The notes below the pieces were generated by a model, which made no database searches, had not been told where the DNA came from, and was given only the letters and a program-made list of their open reading frames with translations. Shown here one piece after another: positions 603 to 21,794 of a stretch of 64,000 nt of DNA; within the stretch, counting starts at the first letter, position 1, and the number at the start of each line of letters is the position of its first letter. A program made the translations under genes and the position numbers. Source of the DNA: Thermomonas sp. (lineage in GTDB: Bacteria; Pseudomonadota; Gammaproteobacteria; Xanthomonadales; Xanthomonadaceae); contig JADKKV010000006.1 of assembly GCA_016720345.1 (NCBI GenBank), positions 62,001 to 126,000 on the forward strand. Direction: 5' to 3'.

Positions 603-1532
603 ATGACCCAAGCCCGCGCGCCCGCCCCGTCCGACCTGCAACTGCGGTTCCTGCTGCCCAGCGCCGGCGTGCGCGGGGTGCTCGTACAGCTGGACCAGAC
701 CTGGCGGGCGATGGCCGCGCGCGCGGCGTATCCGCCCGCGGTCGCCGAACTGCTGGGCGAAGCGGCCGCCGCGGCCGCGCTGTTCACCGGGCATGCCAAG
801 GTCGACGGCCGGCTCTCGGTGCAACTGCGCAGCCACGGCGCCCTGCGCACCCTGTTCGCCGAATGCACCGCGGCCGGCACCCTGCGCGGGATCGCGCGGC
901 TGCAGGAGGATGCGTCCGAACCCGGCGCGGCGACCCCATCGCGCGACCTGCGTTCGCTCGGCAACGACGCGGTGCTGGCCATCACCATCGAGAATCCCGC
1001 GCTGGGCGGCCGCGAGCCGATGCGCTACCAGGGCCTGGTCGAACTCGACGCGGACAACCTCGGCGAAGCCTTCGAGGGCTACTTCCGCCAGTCCGAGCAG
1101 CTGCCGACCCGCCTGCTGCTGGCCTGCGACGGCGCGCGCGCGGCCGGCCTGATGTTGCAAAAGCTGCCCGGCGACGGCGGCGACGACGACGGCTGGAACC
1201 GGGTCGGCGCGCTGTTCGAGACCCTCGGCAGCGCGGAACTGCTGGCGCTGGCGCCCGCCGACACCATCCACCGCCTGTTCCACGAGGAATCACCGCACGC
1301 AATGGGCGGCAAGCCGCTGCGGTTCGCCTGTTCGTGCTCGCGCGAGCGGGTGGCGGCGATGCTGGTCTCGCTGGGCATCGGCGAGGCCGAAGCCGCGGTC
1401 GCCGCCGGCGACGGCGAGGCGCGGGTGCTGTGCGAGTTCTGCGGCCATGACTACCGGTTCGACGCCGAAGCGGTCGCCAGCCTGTTCCGCGGCGCGGGGG
1501 CCGCACTGCCCGCCGCGCCCGGGATCCAGTGA
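603..1532 (+). CDS. hslO: Hsp33 redox-regulated chaperone
   Basis: Cytosolic holdase chaperone switched on by oxidative stress. The 309-residue product has the Hsp33 fold and a C-terminal zinc centre with C243-S-C245 and C277-E-F-C280, the four cysteines that release zinc and form disulfides on activation. The C-terminal pair is CxxC as in the family. The ATG at 603 is preferred over an in-frame ATG at 471, because the upstream extension lies inside the mtgA 5' region and has no Hsp33 character. Length matches the family (about 290-310). Stand-alone gene divergent from mtgA. Confidence 0.95.
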
Positions 1533-1583
1533 CGCCTCGCGCGATTGGATATCCGCGCTGGCCCCGGGCTGCCCTGGCGCGCA

Positions 1584-1612
1584 TTGTTAAAGAATCATGA
1601 ATCGGCTAGGCT
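1584..1612 (+). promoter_or_regulatory. Predicted promoter of the exported-protein gene at 1666
   Basis: TTGTTA at 1584-1589, a 17-base spacer and TAGGCT at 1607-1612. The -35 is identical to that proposed for the TonB-dependent receptor at 11.1 kb. The -10 matches consensus only at three positions, so this is moderate evidence. Confidence 0.4.
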
Positions 1613-1665
1613 AGGTAGCCCCGGGGAGAGGAACTTCGCCGCTCGCGGCTTGTCCATCCAGCACC

Positions 1666-2523
1666 ATGCGCATGCGCCTGACACCCATTGCCGCCGCACT
1701 GCTCGCCCTGGCCCTCGCCAGCGGCGGCGCGCAGGCGCAATCCCGGGCCAAGCGCGACGCCGCAGTGGTGCCGGTGGTGAACAAGGAAAGCGGCAAGCTG
1801 GAAGCCGTGCTCCTGCTGGAGCCCGCCACCACCAGTACCGGCGCCGGCGCACGCTGGCGCTTCGGCAGCACCACCCTTGAAGCGACCTATGGCGTGCAGG
1901 CCGGCGACTCGCTGGCGCTCGTGTGCGACCGCCAGAACGGCCTGTCCTCGGGCATCGCCCAACTCGCCGACAACTGCGTGATGGCCACCCTGAACGACGA
2001 TGGCGCCGGTGGCGTGAGCCGCCACGGCAGCGCAGGCGCCAGCATCAGCCGCGGTGGCAACAAGCTCGGCATGGCGATCGGCAACGGCCGCGACTCGCTG
2101 CCGGCGTGGCTGGCGCCTGGCCAGCGCGCGGGCAAGGTCGAGTCCAGCGATTTCTCGCTGCTCGCCGAGAAGAACATCGGCCGCGAGGCCTTCGTCAGCG
2201 TCGGCGGCACCGTCGCCCGTGCGCGGCTGGTGCCGGCGGCCGACGTGCCGCAACTCGTGGACCAGTGGAATACCCGCAGCCTCAGCATCGGCGGTGGCTT
2301 CGGTGCCTTCGGCGCCAACATCGTCGGACGGGTGGTCAACGTGCCGGGCGAGAGCAACGTCTGGAAGGGCCTGGGCCTGGGCCTGACCTGGCGCACCCCG
2401 TGGAGCGGCCAGCTCACGCTGGGCGCGGACAACGTGGTCACCCGCGGCAAGAACCCGTTCTCGACCGCCAACCAGGACGACCAGGGCACCATCCCCTACG
2501 TGCGCTACAAGCAGGACCTGTAG
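1666..2523 (+). CDS. Exported protein of unknown function, possibly outer-membrane beta-barrel
   Basis: 285 residues with a clear Sec signal peptide (basic start, hydrophobic stretch, AQA cleavage site near residue 24). The mature part is rich in Gly, Ala and alternating short strands, with repeated stretches of GGGFGAFGANIVG type, and ends in strand-like residues. This would suit a small beta-barrel or beta-sandwich in the cell envelope. No catalytic motif is recognised. A promoter candidate lies about 55 bases upstream. The gene ends facing a convergent DUF4097 gene, separated by a hairpin terminator. Function unknown; export is well supported. Confidence 0.75.
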   Translation: MRMRLTPIAAALLALALASGGAQAQSRAKRDAAVVPVVNKESGKLEAVLLLEPATTSTGAGARWRFGSTTLEATYGVQAGDSLALVCDRQNGLSSGIAQLADNCVMATLNDDGAGGVSRHGSAGASISRGGNKLGMAIGNGRDSLPAWLAPGQRAGKVESSDFSLLAEKNIGREAFVSVGGTVARARLVPAADVPQLVDQWNTRSLSIGGGFGAFGANIVGRVVNVPGESNVWKGLGLGLTWRTPWSGQLTLGADNVVTRGKNPFSTANQDDQGTIPYVRYKQDL

Positions 2524-2559
2524 GCCCGGCTGGTTTCGACGACACGTCCGCACAAGCGA

Positions 2560-2584
2560 AAGGCCGCATCATCGATGCGGCCTT
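2560..2584. terminator. Bidirectional hairpin terminator between convergent genes
   Basis: Perfect 11-bp stem AAGGCCGCATC / GATGCGGCCTT with a 3-base loop, lying between two genes that converge. TTC-rich sequence follows on both strands, but neither side has a long T tract, so termination is likely but not certain. Confidence 0.6.
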
Positions 2585-2616
2585 CGTGCTTGCGGGGTGC
2601 CGGATCGCGTCGGCGG

Positions 2617-3522
2617 CTACAGCAGGCGCAGGGTTGCGTCGCCGGAGAAGGTTTCGATGCGCACCTCGCCCTTGCCCGCGCCATAGCGGGCGTGGAAGCT
2701 GGAGCCGGGGCCGAATTCCTCGCGCTGGATCTTCGCATCGGGCGCGCTGAGGTCGCCACTGAAACTTTCGCCAGTCACCTGCGCGGAGAGGTCGCGGGGG
2801 ACGGCCAGGGCCAGGTCGCCGCTGACGCTTTCCATGCTGATCTCGCCATCCGGCAGCAGCGCCACCTTCAGGTCGGCATCGCCGGACACGGTCTCCACCG
2901 ACAGCCTGCGCAGGCGCTCGCCCTTGCTGTCCACCCGCATGTTGCCGGACACGGTTTCCAGCGCGACCTGGCCGCTGAGCCGGCCGCCGAGGGTGAGGTC
3001 GCCGCTGACCGCGCTGGCCTCGACGTCGCCGCTGTTGAAGGTCAGCACCAGGTCGCCACTCACCGATTCCACCGACGCGCGGCGCGGCGCCCCGTTTGCA
3101 CTGATGTCGCCGCTCACCGACTCCAGCGACAACTCGCGCGGGGCGACGCCGTGCACGTCGATGTCCGCCGACACCGTGCTGACTTCCAGCCCGGCCTGCA
3201 ACGGCACCTGCACCAGCAGCATCGTCGGCTCGCTGTTGCGGTCGCGGTTCGGGTACTTCACCTCGATCCGCAATGCGCCTTCATCGCCCTCCACCGTGAA
3301 TTTCTCGACCCCGGCGCCGAGGCTGCCGGTGATCCGGACCTCCGGCCGGTCCCAGGCGCGCACTTCGACGCGGCCCTTGAGGTTGTCGATCTCGACCCGG
3401 CCACGCGGATCCAGCGGCCGGGTCTGGTCGATCGGGGTGGCGGCGAATGCCGGGCACGTTGCGGAAGTAATGATCAAGATCGGGGCCAGGGCCAGGATCG
3501 AGGCTTTCAGGGACAGGGACAT
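2617..3522 (-). CDS. DUF4097-family periplasmic beta-repeat protein
   Basis: 301 residues: signal peptide to about residue 27, then a series of short repeats of the form VSGDL/VSGDI (GDLVLTF, GDLTLGG, GNMRVDS, GDADLKV, GDLALAV, GDLSAPD, GDATLRL). This is the repetitive beta-helix pattern of DUF4097/DUF4098 proteins, often called putative adhesins. It starts 11 bases after the anti-sigma gene and is probably co-transcribed with it, suggesting an envelope protein whose level is set by that sigma factor. Precise role unknown. Confidence 0.8.
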   Translation of the reverse strand: MSLSLKASILALAPILIITSATCPAFAATPIDQTRPLDPRGRVEIDNLKGRVEVRAWDRPEVRITGSLGAGVEKFTVEGDEGALRIEVKYPNRDRNSEPTMLLVQVPLQAGLEVSTVSADIDVHGVAPRELSLESVSGDISANGAPRRASVESVSGDLVLTFNSGDVEASAVSGDLTLGGRLSGQVALETVSGNMRVDSKGERLRRLSVETVSGDADLKVALLPDGEISMESVSGDLALAVPRDLSAQVTGESFSGDLSAPDAKIQREEFGPGSSFHARYGAGKGEVRIETFSGDATLRLL

Positions 3523-4680: not shown

Positions 4681-6276
4681 TTAAGCCGGCAGCTCCGGAA
4701 CCTCGACCCCGCCCTGCCGGAGGGCCGCGACCAGCGGCTGCAGGTGCTTTGCATAGGGCGCCCACTTCGGCACGTCCCGGCGCACCACCCGGTCGCGCAC
4801 CTGCACCGCGCTGGCGGTGGCGACCGCGCGCCCGCTGCTGCGCGGATCGCTCATCGCATCGAGGTAGTCGATGCCGCAGAACGCCGCGACCATGCGCATC
4901 ACGCCGGCCGGATCGCGGGTCAGCTCCGCGTAGTCCACGTCCAGGATCCGGCCCGGATATGCGGCGTGCCAATGCGCCATCAGCCGCCGGTACTGCAGGT
5001 AGTAGTCGGCAAGCTCGCGCTGGTCGTAGGAATACGGGTTGGCGTCGGAAAACAGCTCGCGCAGGTTGGAGAAGCAGGTCTCCACCGGATCGCGCACCAT
5101 GTGCAGGATCCGCGCCTGCGGCAGGGCGCGGCAGATGAAGCCGATGTTGAGGAAGTTGGACGGCAGCTTGTCGGTGAAGCAGCGCTCGTCGCCGAGCCGC
5201 CATGCCATGCCATCCAGGTAGCGCTGGCCGACCTCGCCGAAATCGACGTCCCCCGCGCGTTCCACGATGGTGCGGTCGATCACGCCCTTGCAGTGGTGGT
5301 CGGTGGCGTAGCGCATCGCACTGGTGAAGTCGTAAAGCTCGCCGACCCCATGCACCTGCGGGCTGCCATCCAGGAGCTGTTCCAGCAGCGTGGTGCCGGA
5401 GCGGTGCATGCCGACGATGAAGACCGGCACGCGCGCAGCCCCGTCGTCCGCGCGCGGCAGCACCGGCGGGACCGGACTTGCGACCAGCATGTCGACCAGG
5501 TCGCGACTGTCGGCGACGTCGTACTTCAGCAGGCTGCGCTTGGCACCGCACGCCTGTTCCAGGGCGGTCCAGGCGGCATCGTGCTCGCCCAGGTCGTCGA
5601 GTTCCTTGTGCAGCGCGAACGCGAACGACGCCACCTCGCGCGCCGGCAACCCGGGCCGCGCGAGGATCCCGCGAAGCCGCTGGACGTGGTTGTCGTCGCG
5701 GGTCGCACGGCCGATGTGGGCCAGGAACCAGTGCGCCTGGCCGATCTGCGGCGCGATGGCGATGCATTGCTCCAGGTCGCGGCGCGCTTCCTGCATCCGG
5801 CCGAGGTAGGTCAGCACCTGCGCGCGTGCCAGCAGCACCGGCGGATACCTGTCGTCGCCCCGCTTGGCCTCGTCCAGCATTTGCAGGGCGCGCTCCTGCA
5901 GGTGCACGTACGAGAGCTGGGCCGCATAGGCCACCAGCAAGGGGATCGGGATCACGCGGGGATCGCCGGAGGAATCGATCAGTTCCAGCAGCAGCGCCAC
6001 GTCGTTGCTTGTCCGCAACCTCGCCGCAAGCTGCTCGCGCAGGCGCGGCGCGCGGGCGCCGCAGGCGAACGCCATCATCGCCGCCGTCCGCGCAGTCCGG
6101 TAGCGCCCGGCCAGCGCCTCGGCATAGGAAGCCTCGATCAGGCGTTCCGCCTTCTGCTCCACCGGGACCTGGATGCCAGCCAGGAGCCGGCGCAGGGACG
6201 CGAGGTCGCTGCCTGCGGCGAACGGCTCCGCGTACCTGAGCATCGCCAGCAGCGGACTGTCGGTCCCGGCGGTCAT
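4681..6276 (-). CDS. TPR-containing sulfotransferase (second of pair)
   Basis: 531 residues. The N-terminal half is helical with TPR-like repeats (for example QMLDEAKRGDDRYPPVLLARAQ). The C-terminal half is a PAPS-dependent sulfotransferase: the 5'-phosphosulfate loop FIVGMHRSGTTLLEQLL near residue 285-300 and the 3'-phosphate motif MVRDPVETCFSNL near 385-400. The ATG overlaps the stop of the upstream homologue (ATGA), so the two are translated together. Both lie downstream of a TonB-dependent receptor. The acceptor is unknown; families of this build include protein and small-molecule sulfotransferases. Confidence 0.88.
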   Translation of the reverse strand: MTAGTDSPLLAMLRYAEPFAAGSDLASLRRLLAGIQVPVEQKAERLIEASYAEALAGRYRTARTAAMMAFACGARAPRLREQLAARLRTSNDVALLLELIDSSGDPRVIPIPLLVAYAAQLSYVHLQERALQMLDEAKRGDDRYPPVLLARAQVLTYLGRMQEARRDLEQCIAIAPQIGQAHWFLAHIGRATRDDNHVQRLRGILARPGLPAREVASFAFALHKELDDLGEHDAAWTALEQACGAKRSLLKYDVADSRDLVDMLVASPVPPVLPRADDGAARVPVFIVGMHRSGTTLLEQLLDGSPQVHGVGELYDFTSAMRYATDHHCKGVIDRTIVERAGDVDFGEVGQRYLDGMAWRLGDERCFTDKLPSNFLNIGFICRALPQARILHMVRDPVETCFSNLRELFSDANPYSYDQRELADYYLQYRRLMAHWHAAYPGRILDVDYAELTRDPAGVMRMVAAFCGIDYLDAMSDPRSSGRAVATASAVQVRDRVVRRDVPKWAPYAKHLQPLVAALRQGGVEVPELPA

Positions 6277-7850
6277 GCGTCGGAGGCCGCCACGCCGCAC
6301 CGCTCCAGTTCGGCCAGCATGGGCTGCAGCTGCTGCGAATAGCGCCGCCACGCGCCCATGTGGCCGCGACTGATGGCGTCGCGCGCCTGCACCGCACTGG
6401 CGGTGGCGATCGTGTGCGTCGCGATCGCACCGCCCTCTTGGCGTGCCGGCAGCGAGAGCGCCCCGGCGATGGCCGCGATCGAATCCCGCGGCCTTTCCAC
6501 GAACGCTTCGTAACCCACGCTCGCCACGCGCGGATGCGCGAGCGCCTGCACGCGATCCAGCAGGCGCCGGAAGCGCGCGTACTGGCGCGCGGTTTCCGCC
6601 ATGTCGTAGCTGTAGTAGTAGGAAGACGCGAACCACTCCTTGAGGTTCGAGAAGCAGGTATCCATCGGATCGCGGACCACGCAAAGGACCCTGGCCGCTG
6701 GCATCGCGGCAAGGATGTGGCCGATCGCCAGGTAGTTTTCCGGCCATTTGTCGGCATAGGAGGATGCCCCCTGCGCCCGCCACTGGGTGTGTTCCAGGTA
6801 GCGCTGGCCGAGGTCCTGCAGGTGCGACGGCAGGACCGCCGCGAGCAACCTTGCGTCCGGGTGGAATGGCCCGGGCTGCTGCGCGCACCAGCGCATCTGC
6901 ACCGCCAGGTCCCGCAGCTCGCCGGCACTGGCAAGGTCGGTGGCTGCACACAGGCGCTGCTCGATGAGGGTGGTGCCGGTTCGCGGCATGCCGACCACGA
7001 ACACCGGCTGTGGCCCCGCGTCCAGCGCGGCGCCTGCACCTGCGCCGCTGGCCCATTCGAGGGCGTTCCCGGCCGCCGCGAACAGCGCGTCCTGCGCCGA
7101 TTCGTCATGCTGGACCTGGCCGCGGCGCAACTGCATCGCAGTCTGCAGCGCGGGCCATGCCTCGCCTGGCCGGTCATCACCATCCAGTTCGTGGAACAGG
7201 CTGTACCAGAGCAGCGGTGCGTCGCGAGCGCCCGATTCGGTGCGCTCCAGCAGCCGGCGCAGGCGGTCGATCCGGGCACCCCTCGCAGGGGCAGGCCCCA
7301 CCTTGCTCAGCGCCCAGTGGGCGGGGGCGAACCCCGGGTTGCCCGCCAGGCTGCGTTCCAGTTCCGACCGCGCTTCGTCGAGGCGGCCGAGGTACATCAG
7401 GTTCAGTCCCAGCAAATAGCGCACCGCCGGCGCACCGGCGAGCCCCATCGCCACCGCGCGCTGCAGCAGGGTCAAGGCCGCCTCTGGCTGCATGTGGTCG
7501 GACATCAATTTGCCCACTTCCGCCAACGCCTGCAGCGGGGCTGGCATGCCCGCGAGCGCCGTGGCGCAGGCGAGCGCCGCACGGGTCTCGCCGAGCGGCA
7601 ACAGGGTCTTGCACAGCAATTCCAGCAATTCCGGATCGCCGTATGCGGCCGACATCGCGGCCAGGCCCTGCGCGGTTGCACCCCGCAGGTCGCCGGCGCG
7701 TTGGTCCAGCACCGACAGCCTCAGGTGCGCGAGCGGCGCATACATGCGCTCGCTTCCCAGCCCGGCGTACAACGGACGCGCGTGCTGGTACCGCCCCGCC
7801 GCGTTCAGCCGTTCGGCTTCTTCCCAACGCGCGGCGGCGTCCGCTTCCAT
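6273..7850 (-). CDS. TPR-containing sulfotransferase (first of pair)
   Basis: 525 residues, same architecture as its downstream neighbour: TPR-like helices over about residues 1-230, then a sulfotransferase domain with VFVVGMPRTGTTLIEQ near residue 275-290 and VVRDPMDTCFSNL near 385-400. It starts at the ATG at 7850 behind a GGAGAG ribosome site. The pair has diverged well past recent duplication, yet both keep the PAPS-binding residues, so both should be active. It lies about 75 bases beyond the terminator of the TonB-receptor gene, so read-through or an own promoter is needed. Confidence 0.88.
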   Translation of the reverse strand: MEADAAARWEEAERLNAAGRYQHARPLYAGLGSERMYAPLAHLRLSVLDQRAGDLRGATAQGLAAMSAAYGDPELLELLCKTLLPLGETRAALACATALAGMPAPLQALAEVGKLMSDHMQPEAALTLLQRAVAMGLAGAPAVRYLLGLNLMYLGRLDEARSELERSLAGNPGFAPAHWALSKVGPAPARGARIDRLRRLLERTESGARDAPLLWYSLFHELDGDDRPGEAWPALQTAMQLRRGQVQHDESAQDALFAAAGNALEWASGAGAGAALDAGPQPVFVVGMPRTGTTLIEQRLCAATDLASAGELRDLAVQMRWCAQQPGPFHPDARLLAAVLPSHLQDLGQRYLEHTQWRAQGASSYADKWPENYLAIGHILAAMPAARVLCVVRDPMDTCFSNLKEWFASSYYYSYDMAETARQYARFRRLLDRVQALAHPRVASVGYEAFVERPRDSIAAIAGALSLPARQEGGAIATHTIATASAVQARDAISRGHMGAWRRYSQQLQPMLAELERCGVAASDA

Positions 7851-7923
7851 CGACTCTCCATTCCCGTTGCCCACGCCCACGCGCAAACCGCCACGGACTT
7901 TAACCTCGCCCGCCGGTCCAGGC

Positions 7924-7955
7924 AAAAAAAGGACGGCCGCACAAGGCGGCCGTCC
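7924..7955 (-). terminator. Rho-independent terminator of the TonB-dependent receptor gene
   Basis: On the minus strand a perfect 10-bp stem GGACGGCCGC / GCGGCCGTCC with a 5-base loop is followed directly by seven T residues. It lies 23 bases after the receptor stop codon, a textbook intrinsic terminator. Confidence 0.93.
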
Positions 7956-7978
7956 GAAGCACAACAATTGCTTGGCTA

Positions 7979-10900
7979 TCAGAAGTCGTATTGCACCATG
8001 AAGCGCACCGCACGCGGGGTCTGCCAGCCATTGACCGATTTGTAGATGTTGGGCTGCAGGGCGCCGCCCGAGTCTTCGCCGAACTCGTTGACGTTGATCG
8101 CCTTGCGGCTGTTCAGCACGTTGAACACGTCGACCTTCAGGGTCAGGTGATCGTCCGCGAAGGCCGGCGACCACGACACGTTCAGGTCCAGCTTCTGGGT
8201 CCACGGCAGGCGACCGGCGGTACCGCGCGGCACCTGGACGCCATCGCAGTAGAAGTAGCTGTTGCCGTAGTTCGGCGAGATCGGGTGGTAACCGAAGCAG
8301 TTGATCGGACGCCCGGACTGCGCCGAGAAGTTGCCGCCGATCGACACGGTTTCGGTCACGTCGTAGCTACCGAACAGCTTGAAGCTGTGGCGACGGTCGT
8401 TCGGCAGGTAGCCGTACGAACCTTCAGCCAGTTCCGGGTAGTCGAAGTCCTGGGTGGTGCCGGTATCGTCCTGGCCGATATCCGACTTCACGCCACCTTC
8501 GGTGTTGCCGATGCTCTTGGCGAAGGTGTACGAACCCTGCAGGAACGCACGGTCCCAGCTGCTTTCGAAGAACACTTCGAACGCGGTGTACTTGCGCTTG
8601 GCCTTCGGGCCCAGGATGTCGGCGTCGAGCTCGACCGTCTCCAGGACGCCGTCGCCATTGACGTCCATCTTGAAGACGGAGTCGCGGCCCGGGTTGTACA
8701 GGTGGCAGAACGCAAAGCCGGGGTTGTAGACGGCGATGTCGCTGTTCTGGGTCTTGTCGACCGGCTCGATGAAGATGCCGCCGTCGGCGGTGAAGCCGTT
8801 CGCCAGCGCCCAGTCGATGATCGGACGGTAGTCGCACTGGTCGTCGATCGCCGCCTTCAGGTCGCGATGGATCAGTCGGGTACCCAGCGAGAAGGTATCG
8901 GTGATCTGCTTCTGGAAGCCCAGGATGTACTCGTCCTGGTACATCGGCTTCAGGCCCTGGTCGGAGATGGTCTCCGGGTTCTTGCCGACGCCGAACTCGT
9001 TGTTCAGGTAGCGGATGTCGCGACCGTTGTTGTAGTTCGGGATCAGGGTCAGGCCGGTCGGCGCCCCGGTCACCGGATCCACGCCGGTGTAGGTGTAGAA
9101 CTGCTCGCTGTACAGCGACTTCGAGGCACCACGCACCGCCACGGTGGCGGTCAGCGGCAGCGCGTAACGGCCGGCGTTGCCGTACACCTTGAAGGTGGAA
9201 TCACCGTACACGTCCCAGCTGAAGCCCAGGCGCGGGGCGAACTGGTTCTTGATTTCGGCGAAGGTTTCGCCGTCACCATTCATGTTCTCGAAGTTGTCCC
9301 AGCGCAGGCCGAGATAGGCGATGAAGTTGTCGGTGACGTTCCAGCTGTCTTCGATGTAGAACGCGGTCTGGTCGACGGCGACGGTGGAACCGGACTGGAA
9401 CACGCGCTTGCGGACGACGCTGTTCTCATTGGTGATGCCGGTTGCACTGTAGCGGCCGTAACGCCAGACGATGCCGCCGGAGTACGACTCACCTGCAACC
9501 GACTCGAAGTTGTCGATGTCGACGCCGGCGCGCAGCAGGTGGGCACCCAGCTGCCATTCCGCGTCGATGCGGAACTGGTCGCGGGTGTCCTTGGCGTCCG
9601 GACGACCGAGGACGCTGGCGATCTCGCAGCCAACGCGGCGCGGAACGATATTGTTCACGGCGGACGGACGCGCATCGACGATGACCGGGCAACCGTTGGC
9701 GGGCACGCCAACCGTACCCAGGTACTCGTTGACCACGCCGTTGGCGGCCACGGAGTAGTTGCCGCGGGCGGACTCGGTGGTACCGGCCAGCACCGACAGG
9801 GTGAAGCTGTCGGTCAGGTAGCCGGTGTACTTGCCGATGTAGGTATTGCCACCGAATTCGCTGTACTCGGTGCCCTTGAACGCACCCACCGTCGGAACGC
9901 CGCTGGTGGCGGTCACGTTGTAGTAGTCGGTCTCGATCTCACGCTTGTCGGAAATCGCGGTGAATTCGAGGATGTGGTTGTCGCTGATGTTCCAGTCCAT
10001 CTTCAGCAGCCACTTCGGCTGCGTGTTGACGTCGGAGGTACCGTTGCCGTTCCCACCGGGCAGCGACAGGTTGTCGTCCAGCTTGGTGTACTGCACCAGG
10101 CCGTAGGCGAACAGGCGGTCCTTGATCAGCGCGCCACCGGCCCAGACCGCAGCGGTCAGCTCGTCGGAGAACTTGTCGGACGAATTATCAGCCGCAACGG
10201 TGCCGTCGTTGTAAACCTGGTTCGGGAAGTTCTCGCGCAGGCTGCCCGGGGTGTAGAACAGGTTCCCACCGGCCATGAACTCGTTGGTGCCGCGACGCGA
10301 GATCTGGTTGACGACGCCACCGGTCGAACGGCCGAATTCCGCGCCGTAGCCGCCGGTCTTGGTCTGCTGCTCGGCGATCGCTTCGAACGGGATCTGCGCG
10401 AAGGCGAGGTTGTTGAAGCTGTTGGTGATGTTGAAGCCGTTGAAGTAGTACTGGTTCTCGGCCACCGACGAGCCACCGAAGGACGCCAGGTTGCCGAACG
10501 CCGAGTCGCCGCGCACGGTACCCGGGGCCAGCAGGGCCACCGCGGTGGTGTCACGCGCGACCGGGATCTTCGCGATCTGCTCGGCGGTCAGGATGGTGGT
10601 CGATTCGACCGAGGAGACGTCGATCGGGTTGATCGCGCCGGCACCGACGACGGTCACGGTGTCGAGGGTGGTGGCATCGCCGCCAGAGGTCACGAAGTCG
10701 ATGTTGGCCGCGCCGCCGACGTTGACCGTGACGTTGCGCGGGGCACCGCCGTTGCGGCTCAGCTGGTACTGGCCGGTGGGCAGGGCGGAGAAGCGGTAGT
10801 TGCCATCGCTGCCAGCGGTGATGGTGCGGCTGAAGCCGGTGGCCGGGTTGGTGATGGTGATGGTGTCGCCAGAGGCGGCACGGCCGGTGACTGCACCGGC

Positions 10901-16999: not shown

Positions 17000-17131
17000 C
17001 CCGGCGCCAAGGCCACTGGCCACGCGACCGCTTGCGATGCCATCCTGCGTTTGCGCGGGGATGAGGTTCGCCTGCGCGCGGACGTGGTGGCGCCGGACCC
17101 GGCGTGCGCCGGCAGGCAAGGGGACGCTTGG

Positions 17132-18968: not shown

Positions 18969-21065
18969 TTGCGTTATCGCGCCTTCATCAGCTACAGCCA
19001 CGCCGACGCGCGCCAGGCCACCTGGCTGCACCGGCAGCTGGAGGGCTACCGCTTGCCGTCGCGGCTGCGCGGCGGCAGCGGCGAACACGGCCCGCTGCCG
19101 GAGCGGCTGGTGCCGATCTTCCGCGACCGCGACGACCTCTCCAGCGCCGGCCAGCTGGGCCCGCAGATCGAGGCAGCGCTGGCCGACTCGGAGGCGCTGG
19201 TGGTGGTGTGTTCGCCGAGCGCGGCGCGCTCGCCGTTCGTGGATTCGGAAATCCTCGCCTACAAGCGGCTTGGCCGCGGCGACCGCATCTATGCCTTCAT
19301 CATCGACGGCGAACCCAATGCCGGCGACCAGCGCGAGTGCTTCCCGGCGGCGTTGCGTTTCGAGCTTGAGCCCGACGGCAGCATCGGCAGCACCCCGGCC
19401 AACCCGATCGCCGCCGACGCCCGCGCGGGCAAGGACGGCAAGTCGCTGGCGCGGCTGAAGCTGCTGGCCGGCCTGTTCGGCCTGCCGCTGGACACCCTGC
19501 GCCAGCGCGAAGCGCAACGCCGGCACCGGCGCATGGCCGCGGTGACCGCGCTGGCAGTGCTGGTGATGCTGGTCACCAGCGTGCTGGCGGTGCAGGCGGT
19601 GGTGGCGCAAAAGGCCGCCGAGCGCCGGCAGAAGCAGGCCGAGGCGCTGGTGGACTTCATGCTGGGCGACCTCAACGACAAGCTCTCGGAAGTGGGCCGG
19701 CTGGACATCCTGTCCGCGGTCAACGACAAGGCGATGGCCTATTTCAAGTCGTTGCCGAACACCGACGTCACCGCGGCGGTGCTGCAGCAACGCGCCAAGG
19801 CGCTGGTCAAGATCGGTGTAGTCCGCTCCGATCAGGGCGAGTTGTCGAAGGCGATGGAGAGTTTCGAGGCGGCGTCGAAGCTGTCGGGCGCGTTGGCACG
19901 GGCTGCCCCGGCCAACGTGGCGACGCAACTGGCACATGCCGAAGTGCTGGCCTACGTCGGACTCAGCCACTGGTACCAGGGCGACCTTGCGCGCGCGGAG
20001 CAGGGCTTCGATGCGGCGTATGACGTCCTCGCCGGTGCGCGCCGCCTGGCGCCCGACGATCCGCAGCTCCTCTTCCAGTTGTCGACCGTCGAGAACAACA
20101 ACGGCCACGTGCTCGAGGCCCGCGGGCAGATCGACCAGGCGACCGGCCACTACCGACGCATGCTGGAGGCGGCACAGCGGCTGACCACGCTTGCGCCGGA
20201 CGAGGACGACTGGCAGAACCAGCTGGCGCTGGCGCACAACAACCTGGCGAAAATGGCGTTGCTGGGCGGAAACCTGTCGATGGCGATCGAGGGGTATCGC
20301 CGCCAGGTCGCGATCCAGCGCGCGCTGGCCGCGCGCGATCCCAGGAACAATGCGCAACGCCGCGGCCTGCTGATCGCCCGCTTCACCCTGGGCCGCACGC
20401 TTGCACTGATGGGGCAGGCGGAAGAAGGGCGCCGACTGATGCAGCAGGCGCTGGATGAAGCACGCGCACTCCACGCGATGGAGCCCAGCAGCACGGACTT
20501 CCAGAGCGACGTTGGCCTGTACGCGCTGCAACTCGCCCGGCTGGAACGCCAGCTCGGCAATTCCGAATCGGCGTTGCAACTGGCACAGGAGTCCGCCGGG
20601 CTGTTCGATGCATTGGTCAGGGCCAGCAAGGACCAGCCCACCTGGCAGAGCCGGCAAGCGGAGGCCATCACCGAGCGTGCGCACCTGGCGATCGCCGCCG
20701 GCACGCGCGAAGGCGATCTGGACACCCAGCTTCGAAAGGCCCTGCAAACCCTGGAAGCGCAACTGGCCCAGAGTCCGCAGGACCGCAGCAGCGTGCTTGC
20801 CACGGTCGACGCCCGCCTGCGCCTGGCCGCGATTTCCAGTGATCCGGAACGGACTCGGCTCGCCACCACGTCGCTTGCCACCATCGAAGCGCAGGCATCC
20901 GCGCGCAACGACCCGCGCCTGCGCGTGCTTGAAGCCGATGCGTTGCGCCAGCTTGGGCGCAGGGCCGACGCCAGCGCCGTCGACACGGCACTGCGGGCCT
21001 CTGGCTATCGGGCACCCGCCGTTGCCAGGGTGGCGCGCGCCGCCGCGGCTTCCCTCAACCCCTGA
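18969..21065 (+). CDS. TIR-domain protein with membrane helix and TPR repeats
   Basis: 698 residues. The TIR domain (about 1-140) has FISYSHADARQATWLHRQL, the RDRDDLSSAGQLGPQIEAAL stretch and CSPSAARSPFVDSEI with the Glu expected in NAD-hydrolysing TIRs. A basic linker (RQREAQRRHRR) is followed by one membrane helix at about 186-208, then a coiled segment and TPR-type helical repeats to the end. With the N-terminus inside, the TPR part would be periplasmic. The start is TTG at 18969, six bases after GGGAGG; no in-frame ATG nearby is plausible. Same strand as the SLOG protein and the two small genes. TIR domains act as NADases or scaffolds; which applies here is unknown. Confidence 0.8.
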   Translation: MRYRAFISYSHADARQATWLHRQLEGYRLPSRLRGGSGEHGPLPERLVPIFRDRDDLSSAGQLGPQIEAALADSEALVVVCSPSAARSPFVDSEILAYKRLGRGDRIYAFIIDGEPNAGDQRECFPAALRFELEPDGSIGSTPANPIAADARAGKDGKSLARLKLLAGLFGLPLDTLRQREAQRRHRRMAAVTALAVLVMLVTSVLAVQAVVAQKAAERRQKQAEALVDFMLGDLNDKLSEVGRLDILSAVNDKAMAYFKSLPNTDVTAAVLQQRAKALVKIGVVRSDQGELSKAMESFEAASKLSGALARAAPANVATQLAHAEVLAYVGLSHWYQGDLARAEQGFDAAYDVLAGARRLAPDDPQLLFQLSTVENNNGHVLEARGQIDQATGHYRRMLEAAQRLTTLAPDEDDWQNQLALAHNNLAKMALLGGNLSMAIEGYRRQVAIQRALAARDPRNNAQRRGLLIARFTLGRTLALMGQAEEGRRLMQQALDEARALHAMEPSSTDFQSDVGLYALQLARLERQLGNSESALQLAQESAGLFDALVRASKDQPTWQSRQAEAITERAHLAIAAGTREGDLDTQLRKALQTLEAQLAQSPQDRSSVLATVDARLRLAAISSDPERTRLATTSLATIEAQASARNDPRLRVLEADALRQLGRRADASAVDTALRASGYRAPAVARVARAAAASLNP

Positions 21066-21137: not shown

Positions 21138-21533
21138 ATGACAAACAACATCAACGTGACTCTGGATACGTCGGTTACCCCCCACGAGCTGAAGGTCCAC
21201 GACCACGGGCATGTCCGCATCGACAAGAAGCCCGGCGCCCAGCTCATCAGCTGGAACCTGACCGGAAATCTTGCGCAAGGCAGCTTCCTCCCGATCTGCG
21301 GCAATTCCCCGGGTTTCGAGTGGGTGAGCGACCCGCCACCGCCAGGAGGCATCTTCGGCGAGCCGCAGGTCTTCGCGAAGTCGCTCACCCTCGTCGATAT
21401 CCATCCCGACGGTGGCAGCGACGGTACCTGGATCTACCGCCTGAGGGTGTGCCTGGATGGAACCGTGTACTCGACCAGCTCGAGCGCTGGCGTCTCCGAC
21501 GTCCGCGGCAATCCGATCATCATCAACGACTGA
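21138..21533 (+). CDS. Small beta-rich protein with C-terminal NPIIIND tag
   Basis: 131 residues from the ATG at 21138 behind a GGAG site; no signal peptide and no membrane helix. Predicted mostly beta (NINVTLDTSV, GAQLISWNLTG, WIYRLRVCLDGTVYST). It has SDPPPPGGIFGEP in the middle, a DP...EP pattern that may place it in the uncharacterised family called DP-EP (recalled, not checked). The last seven residues are NPIIIND. The next small protein ends NPIIINH, and the two DNA ends are 22/24 identical. It follows the TIR-TPR gene by 72 bases and is probably in its operon. Function unknown. Confidence 0.72.
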   Translation: MTNNINVTLDTSVTPHELKVHDHGHVRIDKKPGAQLISWNLTGNLAQGSFLPICGNSPGFEWVSDPPPPGGIFGEPQVFAKSLTLVDIHPDGGSDGTWIYRLRVCLDGTVYSTSSSAGVSDVRGNPIIIND

Positions 21534-21629
21534 GCTCGCCAACCGACGAACGGCACGCTTTTCCACCAGCCCCGGCGTAGCCTGCCGAGGCTGGCCATTC
21601 CGCCAACGCACTTCCGCAGGAGCATCCCA

Positions 21630-21794
21630 ATGGGCAATTCGAAGAAGCCGCACCAGGACGACCAGGACAACGACGGCATCGCCGACACCGGCCAATCGCA
21701 GTCGCAAGCGCATGCCGGCCAGGACCAGGATGGCGACGGCGTCCCCGACGGCGACACCAGCGTCCAGTCCAACCCGATCATCATCAACCACTGA
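21630..21794 (+). CDS. 54-residue acidic peptide with two DxDxDG loops and NPIIINH tag
   Basis: Too short for most gene finders, but it has a near-perfect AGGAG site seven bases before the ATG. The product is hydrophilic and acidic, with two copies of the calcium-loop pattern D-x-D-x-D-G-x-x-D (DQDNDGIAD and DQDGDGVPD), as in thrombospondin type 3 or dockerin-like loops. It has no cysteine, signal peptide or membrane segment. It ends SNPIIINH, sharing NPIIIN with the neighbouring 131-residue protein. It is the last gene of the SLOG/TIR block, before a GC hairpin. Not recognised as a described family; possibly a substrate, partner or trigger of the TIR-TPR protein. Confidence 0.68.
   Translation: MGNSKKPHQDDQDNDGIADTGQSQSQAHAGQDQDGDGVPDGDTSVQSNPIIINH

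Follow-up and report, generated by a model that had tools for sequence, protein, structure and literature searches.

To our knowledge, what triggers bacterial TIR proteins is a largely open matter. TPR domains are known to read C-terminal peptides, as in HOP with the EEVD end of Hsp90 and in PEX5 with PTS1. Two kinds of described system lie closest to the locus treated here, namely Thoeris, a phage-defence system in which a TIR protein (ThsB), the maker of a cyclic ADP-ribose signal, is encoded beside a SLOG-containing protein (ThsA), and the TIR-SLATT modules, for which PMC9503650 gives a TIR gene beside a SLATT gene with two transmembrane segments as a predicted membrane effector pair regulated by ADP-ribose. 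Our locus lies in a 64,000-nucleotide stretch of a Thermomonas sp. contig (JADKKV010000006.1), hereafter the window, and encodes on its forward strand a SLOG-SLATT-like protein (P0004), a TIR-TPR protein (P0003) and two small proteins (P0001 and P0002) that end in the same tail, NPIIIN. By computation we find that this tail recurs, in a fixed register and with covariation inside loci, on otherwise unrelated small proteins beside TIR-TPR genes, which suggests that it is a plug-in docking tag of an immune-like signalling module.

The tail is carried by P0001 (131 aa, 21138..21533), which has 8 homologues found independently of the tail and belongs to a family alignment of 42 rows (A3), and by P0002 (54 aa, 21630..21794), an acidic low-complexity peptide with a body net charge of -8. 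Both are open reading frames (ORFs) on the forward strand with GGAG preceding the ATG, and they end in GNPIIIND and SNPIIINH; the tag with its last residue occupies 21510..21530 in P0001 and, by sequence pattern, 21771..21791 in P0002. The original prediction, which had picked out these two adjacent frames and their tails from the letters alone, is thus confirmed in its starting point. The pattern AAYCCNATHATHATHAAY occurs twice in the 2.66 Mb genome, at the ends of these two genes. It had also been claimed that the bodies are unrelated, and with the tails removed they indeed give no BLAST match at E 10. The reported identity of 22 of the 24 final bases holds only with the stop codon included, since 20 of 24 bases agree over the eight final sense codons; this is close to the expectation from codon bias, since 5 of the 6 shared residues use the same codon as against 4.4 expected. 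The description of P0001 as beta-rich agrees with its AlphaFold model. The calcium-loop-like character ascribed to P0002 is weak, the Excalibur match (E 0.0015, 19.3 bits) lying below the Pfam cut-off of 22 and the second loop being altered in the peptide of a congener; read by eye, the other acidic peptides do not take the calcium-loop idea either. The 54-residue frame itself is conserved, as the congener G1139 encodes, at a contig end, a 54-aa peptide 52% identical to P0002 and ending SNPVIINR, beside a beta protein ending KNPVIINR, so that both tails differ from those of the window by the same I/V exchange. The nonsynonymous rate (dN) of 0.31 between the two peptides, set against a synonymous rate (dS) of 0.48, indicates a body under weak constraint.

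As a strict test, a fixed DNA pattern for P-I-I-I-N was run over 296 genomes of the family, in which it was found at 58 places in 47 genomes, the backwards pattern being found at 1. We examined 48 of these places, the remaining ten coming from one genus. Leaving aside five further stop-to-stop frames with no usable start, 12 places are the C-terminus of a real ORF, and of these 11 adjoin a TIR-TPR gene and 1 is an orphan. Neither a random scatter of such tails nor a 54-residue frame lacking in close relatives, the two outcomes that the original prediction counted against itself, is therefore what we observe. A scan for close relatives by P0001 alone found nothing and the TIR-TPR alignment was used instead; the resulting profile scan gave 51 loci, including Rhodanobacter, Dyella, Frateuria, Lysobacter and Nevskia, and one (L108) in a record labelled Candidatus Eremiobacteraeota. 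The strict tail is present in 6 of the 51, and in most others the gene that follows TIR-TPR has an ending of the broader form P-x-[IVL]-x-N (NPTIKNR, NPSIKNN and NPWVRNN are examples). The recognition tag that had been proposed thus survives as a transferable tail that accompanies TIR-TPR on unrelated bodies, with NPIIIN as just one local form of it. A tagged ORF of this broader form lies downstream in 46 of the 48 loci that have more than 450 nucleotides downstream. Near TPR, 90 distinct tagged sequences stand among 915 same-strand ORFs as against 1 among 1,032 opposite-strand ORFs, totals that count some loci twice, and elsewhere in the same loci 12 of 4,447 ORFs match the tail, several of them being second copies of the system. 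Sorted by hand, the tagged proteins are of the beta type in 42 loci and acidic-type peptides in 20, with both present in 16.

The same association is met when the search starts from the beta protein. Homologues of P0001 occur in 5 of the 296 family genomes (the own genome included) with TIR-TPR beside all five, and tails in this family include KDPIIINH, DNPIIINR, KDPVIINR and GGPIIINKKQ. A scan with the beta profile matched 31 of 397 genomes of the order, and 18 of the 20 stretches fetched from it contain a TIR or TPR match. In the class sample a tagged beta protein was found in 1 of 369 genomes, the own one, and P0001 had no match among plasmids and phages. Searches of open-licence PMC papers, not made with the tail letters, returned no title naming the tail or the locus.

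It seems to us very improbable that the shared 3′ end is instead a DNA-level element, either a recombination site or a recently copied gene end, with no function as a protein tag. Across loci, 83 of 113 shared tail residues use the same codon compared with 71.5 expected, so some exchange may occur, and the Thr-rich linkers before the tail are alike in some loci. However, the DNA past the stop codon has an identity of 0.17-0.50 in 22 pairs, both bodies of the locus L090 retain PRIKNN while agreeing in 1 codon of 6, and the Asn is present in all 8 beta homologues that were collected without a tail criterion. From the codon sharing, the divergent post-stop DNA and the differing L090 codons we take the tail to be kept as protein, perhaps with some exchange of gene ends.

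The tail is found on at least four kinds of body. The first is the beta-sandwich family A3, in whose 42 rows M1, the tail Pro and the tail Asn are the only invariant positions; the latter two are so partly by construction, because the rows were chosen by the tail, and in the alignment of the 8 homologues found without that criterion (A2) the Pro is kept in 7 and the Asn in 8. The second comprises acidic-type, disordered-looking peptides of 43-56 aa with a body net charge of -4 to -10 (0 in L116). Small proteins with a signal-peptide-like start form the third (L095, L115 with its near copy L117, and L177), and those of L095 (7798-7995) and L115 (8161-8361) have a common core like ISNWFACAIGSQSCVS with two cysteines. 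Proline-alanine repeats (L164, L165 and L170) form the fourth, and the tail is also met on other proteins in L172 (CDPPIINK) and L189 (CDPMIINRFD). Most tagged proteins have no signal-like start and a few have one.

Of 89 tails, 76 have one residue after the Asn, 12 have three and 1 has five, while 0, 2 and 4 never occur in a search that allowed 0 to 8. It may be noted that one of the 90 tail matches was dropped as spurious-looking (195 aa, in L009, with 7 residues after Asn), and that the longer tails come from several separate loci, related loci not being independent. This odd register, together with P, I and N at alternate positions, is as expected of a beta-strand read from the C-terminus. 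A beta-type protein in L090 (2084-4734) and in L092 (9706-10077) has the tail DPEIHN(K/H)P(K/Q) with three residues after the Asn, and in L090 it adjoins a second TIR-TPR copy that has a distinct tail of its own. In the AlphaFold model P0001 is a beta-sandwich (predicted local distance difference test score, pLDDT, 91) in which the IIIN of the tail is the last strand. The notion of a tag apart from its body is thus qualified for the beta protein, where the tail doubles as part of the fold.

On searching with this model, Foldseek gave one match with E <0.001, the MakD entry 8rqy, and otherwise mostly immunoglobulin-like folds. SO1698 of Shewanella oneidensis, the DP-EP protein (PF08985, DUF1888), is absent from the best 50 matches and surfaced only in a second look, in which it was the best structural match. 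Going by the model, the two share the beta-sandwich fold with a C-terminal strand in place; the last residue of the P0001 tail falls on residue 122 of SO1698 in 3 of 5 mutant chains and, if ungapped, P126 falls on P117. Unlike DP-EP, the P0001 family shares its tail with unrelated neighbour proteins, and at E up to 1 none of the 42 A3 members matches PF08985. A search for PF08985 in 185 class genomes gave no match and is uninformative, as the controls were silent too, and a sequence search of solved structures returned none for A3, nothing meaningful for A4 and chance-level results for two single proteins. In SO1698 the strand equivalent to the tail is presumably a separate peptide released by self-cleavage at Asp-Pro, through Lys98, Asp37 and Asp116. 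A Shewanella DUF1888 sequence is termed self-cleaving in PMC11655445. This relationship, along with the residue before the tail Pro being N in 38 and D in 18 of 90 cases, is what could speak for the tail as a processing or turnover signal, either a C-terminal degron or a site cleaved before Pro or after Asn in the manner of DP-EP. We regard this as improbable, since the residue before Pro varies, the chemistry assumed for SO1698 is not conserved (no Lys or Asp is invariant or nearly so in A3), and a degron would not be expected to keep to a fixed, odd register. Also, no recurring peptidase gene was noticed by eye in the loci read, the other neighbours having been given no family search.

In 20 loci where a tagged beta protein is accompanied by a tagged protein of another kind, the summed agreement of the tails at the three variable positions is 39.3, compared with 15.4 on shuffling and 26.2 on shuffling within two clades that we set ourselves, and 0 of 20,000 shuffles attained the observed score. 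Loci lacking a beta protein do not enter this set, nor do L170, the near copies L088 and L117 and the questionable ORF of 42 aa in L133. Taken by itself, the [IVL] position gives a marginal result (19.0 vs 17.1, p 0.05). Partial Mantel tests over 41 loci with one beta protein each, liberal tests with small effects, relate the tail to the TPR at 0.26 both given the beta body (p 0.003) and given the TIR (p 0.0025). Given TPR, the tail relates to the beta body at 0.03 (p 0.35) and to the TIR at 0.15 (p 0.06). The distances are themselves correlated, at 0.61 between TPR and beta body and 0.41 between the TIR and TPR of the same protein. This pattern modestly favours the TPR as the candidate reader of the tail. 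The partnership with the TIR-TPR protein put forward in the original prediction accordingly has the association of the tail behind it, with the modest covariation pointing to the TPR as the part that reads. As in HOP/Hsp90 EEVD and PEX5/PTS1, a TPR domain, here a candidate binder, neighbours proteins whose very C-terminus is conserved and keeps a fixed register; the difference is that the conserved positions alternate, in the manner of a strand, and that none of the 89 tails has the Asn as its final residue.

The genes for P0004 and P0003 lie directly upstream of the tagged genes on the same strand. P0003 (18969..21065, probable TTG start at 18969 with GGGAGG upstream) has Pfam matches to TIR_2 (E 4.9e-9) and TPR_2 (E 8.4e-9) with one hydrophobic segment, residues 197-215, between the domains. 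The Glu of [WFY]-V-x-x-E in its TIR domain, which we take to serve catalytic activity, is invariant in 6 of 6 sequences. P0004 (17132..18898 from the ATG, other candidate starts being TTG at 17051 and GTG at 17084) has a predicted SLOG fold, Rossmann-like and of the YpsA/DprA/LOG group, which places it in the SLOG superfamily. Its C-terminal part is helical in the model with hydrophobic segments, and it matches SLATT_1 at 19.8 bits (curated cut-off 41) and DUF4231 at 16.3 bits (cut-off 24.7). As most loci also encode such a membrane protein, the backbone resembles signalling from TIR to SLOG through nicotinamide adenine dinucleotide (NAD). The likeness to Thoeris lies in the TIR gene beside a SLOG gene; here, however, SLOG is joined to membrane helices and not to the sirtuin-type NAD hydrolase (NADase) of ThsA. 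Since P0004 has no sirtuin among its Pfam matches and its C-terminal part is helical, we do not file the locus as Thoeris, only as working like it. The locus also differs from both Thoeris and the predicted TIR-SLATT modules in that its TIR domain is fused to a hydrophobic segment and a TPR domain, and in the extra tagged small proteins.

Our leading though tentative reading makes the tail a transferable strand for docking, with which exchangeable small proteins would attach to the protein with TIR, transmembrane (TM) segment and TPR (TIR-TM-TPR), or to one another, the TPR domain most likely reading it, and so feed a Thoeris-like response. P-x-[IV]-x-N with an odd number of residues after it would form a short beta-strand that turns its P, I and N to the same side, into a groove, and the alternate residues with the one after Asn would tune specificity to the locus. 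The carriers in one gene cluster, a DP-EP-like sandwich, an acidic disordered peptide and sometimes a signal-peptide-bearing or proline-alanine-rich peptide, would act as ligands or regulators of the neighbouring receptor. Once this receptor is triggered, its TIR domain may produce an NAD-derived nucleotide; the neighbouring protein would detect the nucleotide through its SLOG domain and permeabilise the membrane through its SLATT-like part, an abortive response like that of Thoeris, with tags as its input layer. With about the same caution, we propose that the strand was borrowed from a DP-EP-like sandwich and sits on unrelated small proteins, which would vie for a single socket on the TPR (or the sandwich) and thereby govern the TIR-to-SLOG NAD signal, tag and reader coevolving locus by locus to give natural orthogonal strand-tag pairs.

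Alternatively, the small proteins could exchange strands among themselves, the sandwich being the socket whose groove is filled in cis by its own tail and in trans by that of an acidic or secreted peptide, which would switch, cap or polymerise the sandwich. The comparison would be with SpyTag/SpyCatcher and chaperone-usher donor-strand complementation, in that a sandwich could likewise be completed in trans by a beta-strand that comes off its own body; the strand here differs in being natural and common to several proteins of one cluster, and both its trans binding and any covalent link would be hypothetical. We consider this unlikely, though worth weighing. In 26 of the 46 hand-sorted tagged loci the sandwich occurs with no acidic peptide, L110 and L114 have tagged peptides and TIR-TPR where no A3-type sandwich was detected (although a divergent one can escape the search, as in L189 of G023), and, as given above, the tail does not track divergence of the beta body once TPR is accounted for.

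Several observations weigh against docking onto the TPR. The single-chain model of P0001 pairs the tail with its own sandwich, so the sandwich may be the reader, and the tail also relates to the beta body given TIR (0.16, p 0.007) and to TIR given the beta body (0.21, p 0.015). Also, a single hydrophobic segment would split TIR and TPR between compartments while the tagged proteins vary in having a signal-like start, so that one reader could hardly meet them all. The 2 exceptions among the 48 loci are L130, in a record labelled Nevskia, whose beta protein has no tag, and L099, whose peptide ends PRIKPT; in L106 the beta protein has Gly for Pro (GGIIINK) and was left out of the tagged count. 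The orphan noted above, a 50-aa acidic peptide ending DPIIINR (L068, tail near 4989 on the minus strand), is in a genome, G183, with no detected TIR-TPR or A3-type homologue, where the neighbouring genes presumably encode DUF488 and 3-methyladenine glycosylase proteins. Two of the 20 fetched beta-profile stretches have no TIR or TPR match, L168 showing only the SLOG-SLATT gene and L167 none. Of 52 loci, some of them cut by contig ends, 36 gave the SLOG-SLATT gene, and L011 and L012 had no match to it. PADLOC returned weak matches at most for the locus (TIR-NLR, E 0.019). The reader of the tail, the NADase activity, the pore formation and the role in defence are what we infer.

The inputs to the TIR protein seem here to carry a label, a short transferable C-terminal strand open to mutation, exchange and titration, and the question of triggering thereby becomes directly testable. 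Should loci hold mutually exclusive tail-reader pairs, orthogonal peptide tags of the genetically encoded kind would also be obtainable from them. For annotation, the final six or so residues are enough to identify such short genes.

Some related arrangements were seen on the way. In L199 (G010, 6386-9895) a SLOG-SLATT gene stands beside a different TIR-like protein with no convincing tagged gene seen, a hint that different TIR systems have the SLOG-SLATT part in common. Outside the class, distant SLOG-SLATT-like genes in L201 and L202 (G939 and G984) lie beside a gene that by eye is patatin-like, again with no convincing tags. The Eremiobacteraeota-labelled L108 has the full arrangement with an unusual tail, PWVRNN, on both beta protein and peptide, and may reflect transfer or a misfiled bin. 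In G023 the TIR-TPR gene of L048/L124 is in two overlapping pieces with the tagged peptide after it intact, and the second TIR-TPR locus of that genome, L189, has a divergent tagged protein of 144 aa.

Finally, the module comes and goes within the genus. For 14 congeners we fetched the stretch beyond the 3′ end of the flanking transporter. No module gene was detected at the transporter site in 10 of them (L225, L227-L229, L231-L235 and L237), where the gene at the site is presumably an acyl-CoA dehydrogenase, with a gene that we take to be DUF4442-like in four; L230 and L236 had no match to any query. At a contig end, L224 has the beta protein and a tagged peptide, and in G237 the module is at the same place as in the window. 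In L226 (G225, 1074-3188) the SLOG-SLATT gene alone is kept, between a DUF4442-like gene and the flanking transporter, which is a partial loss of the module.
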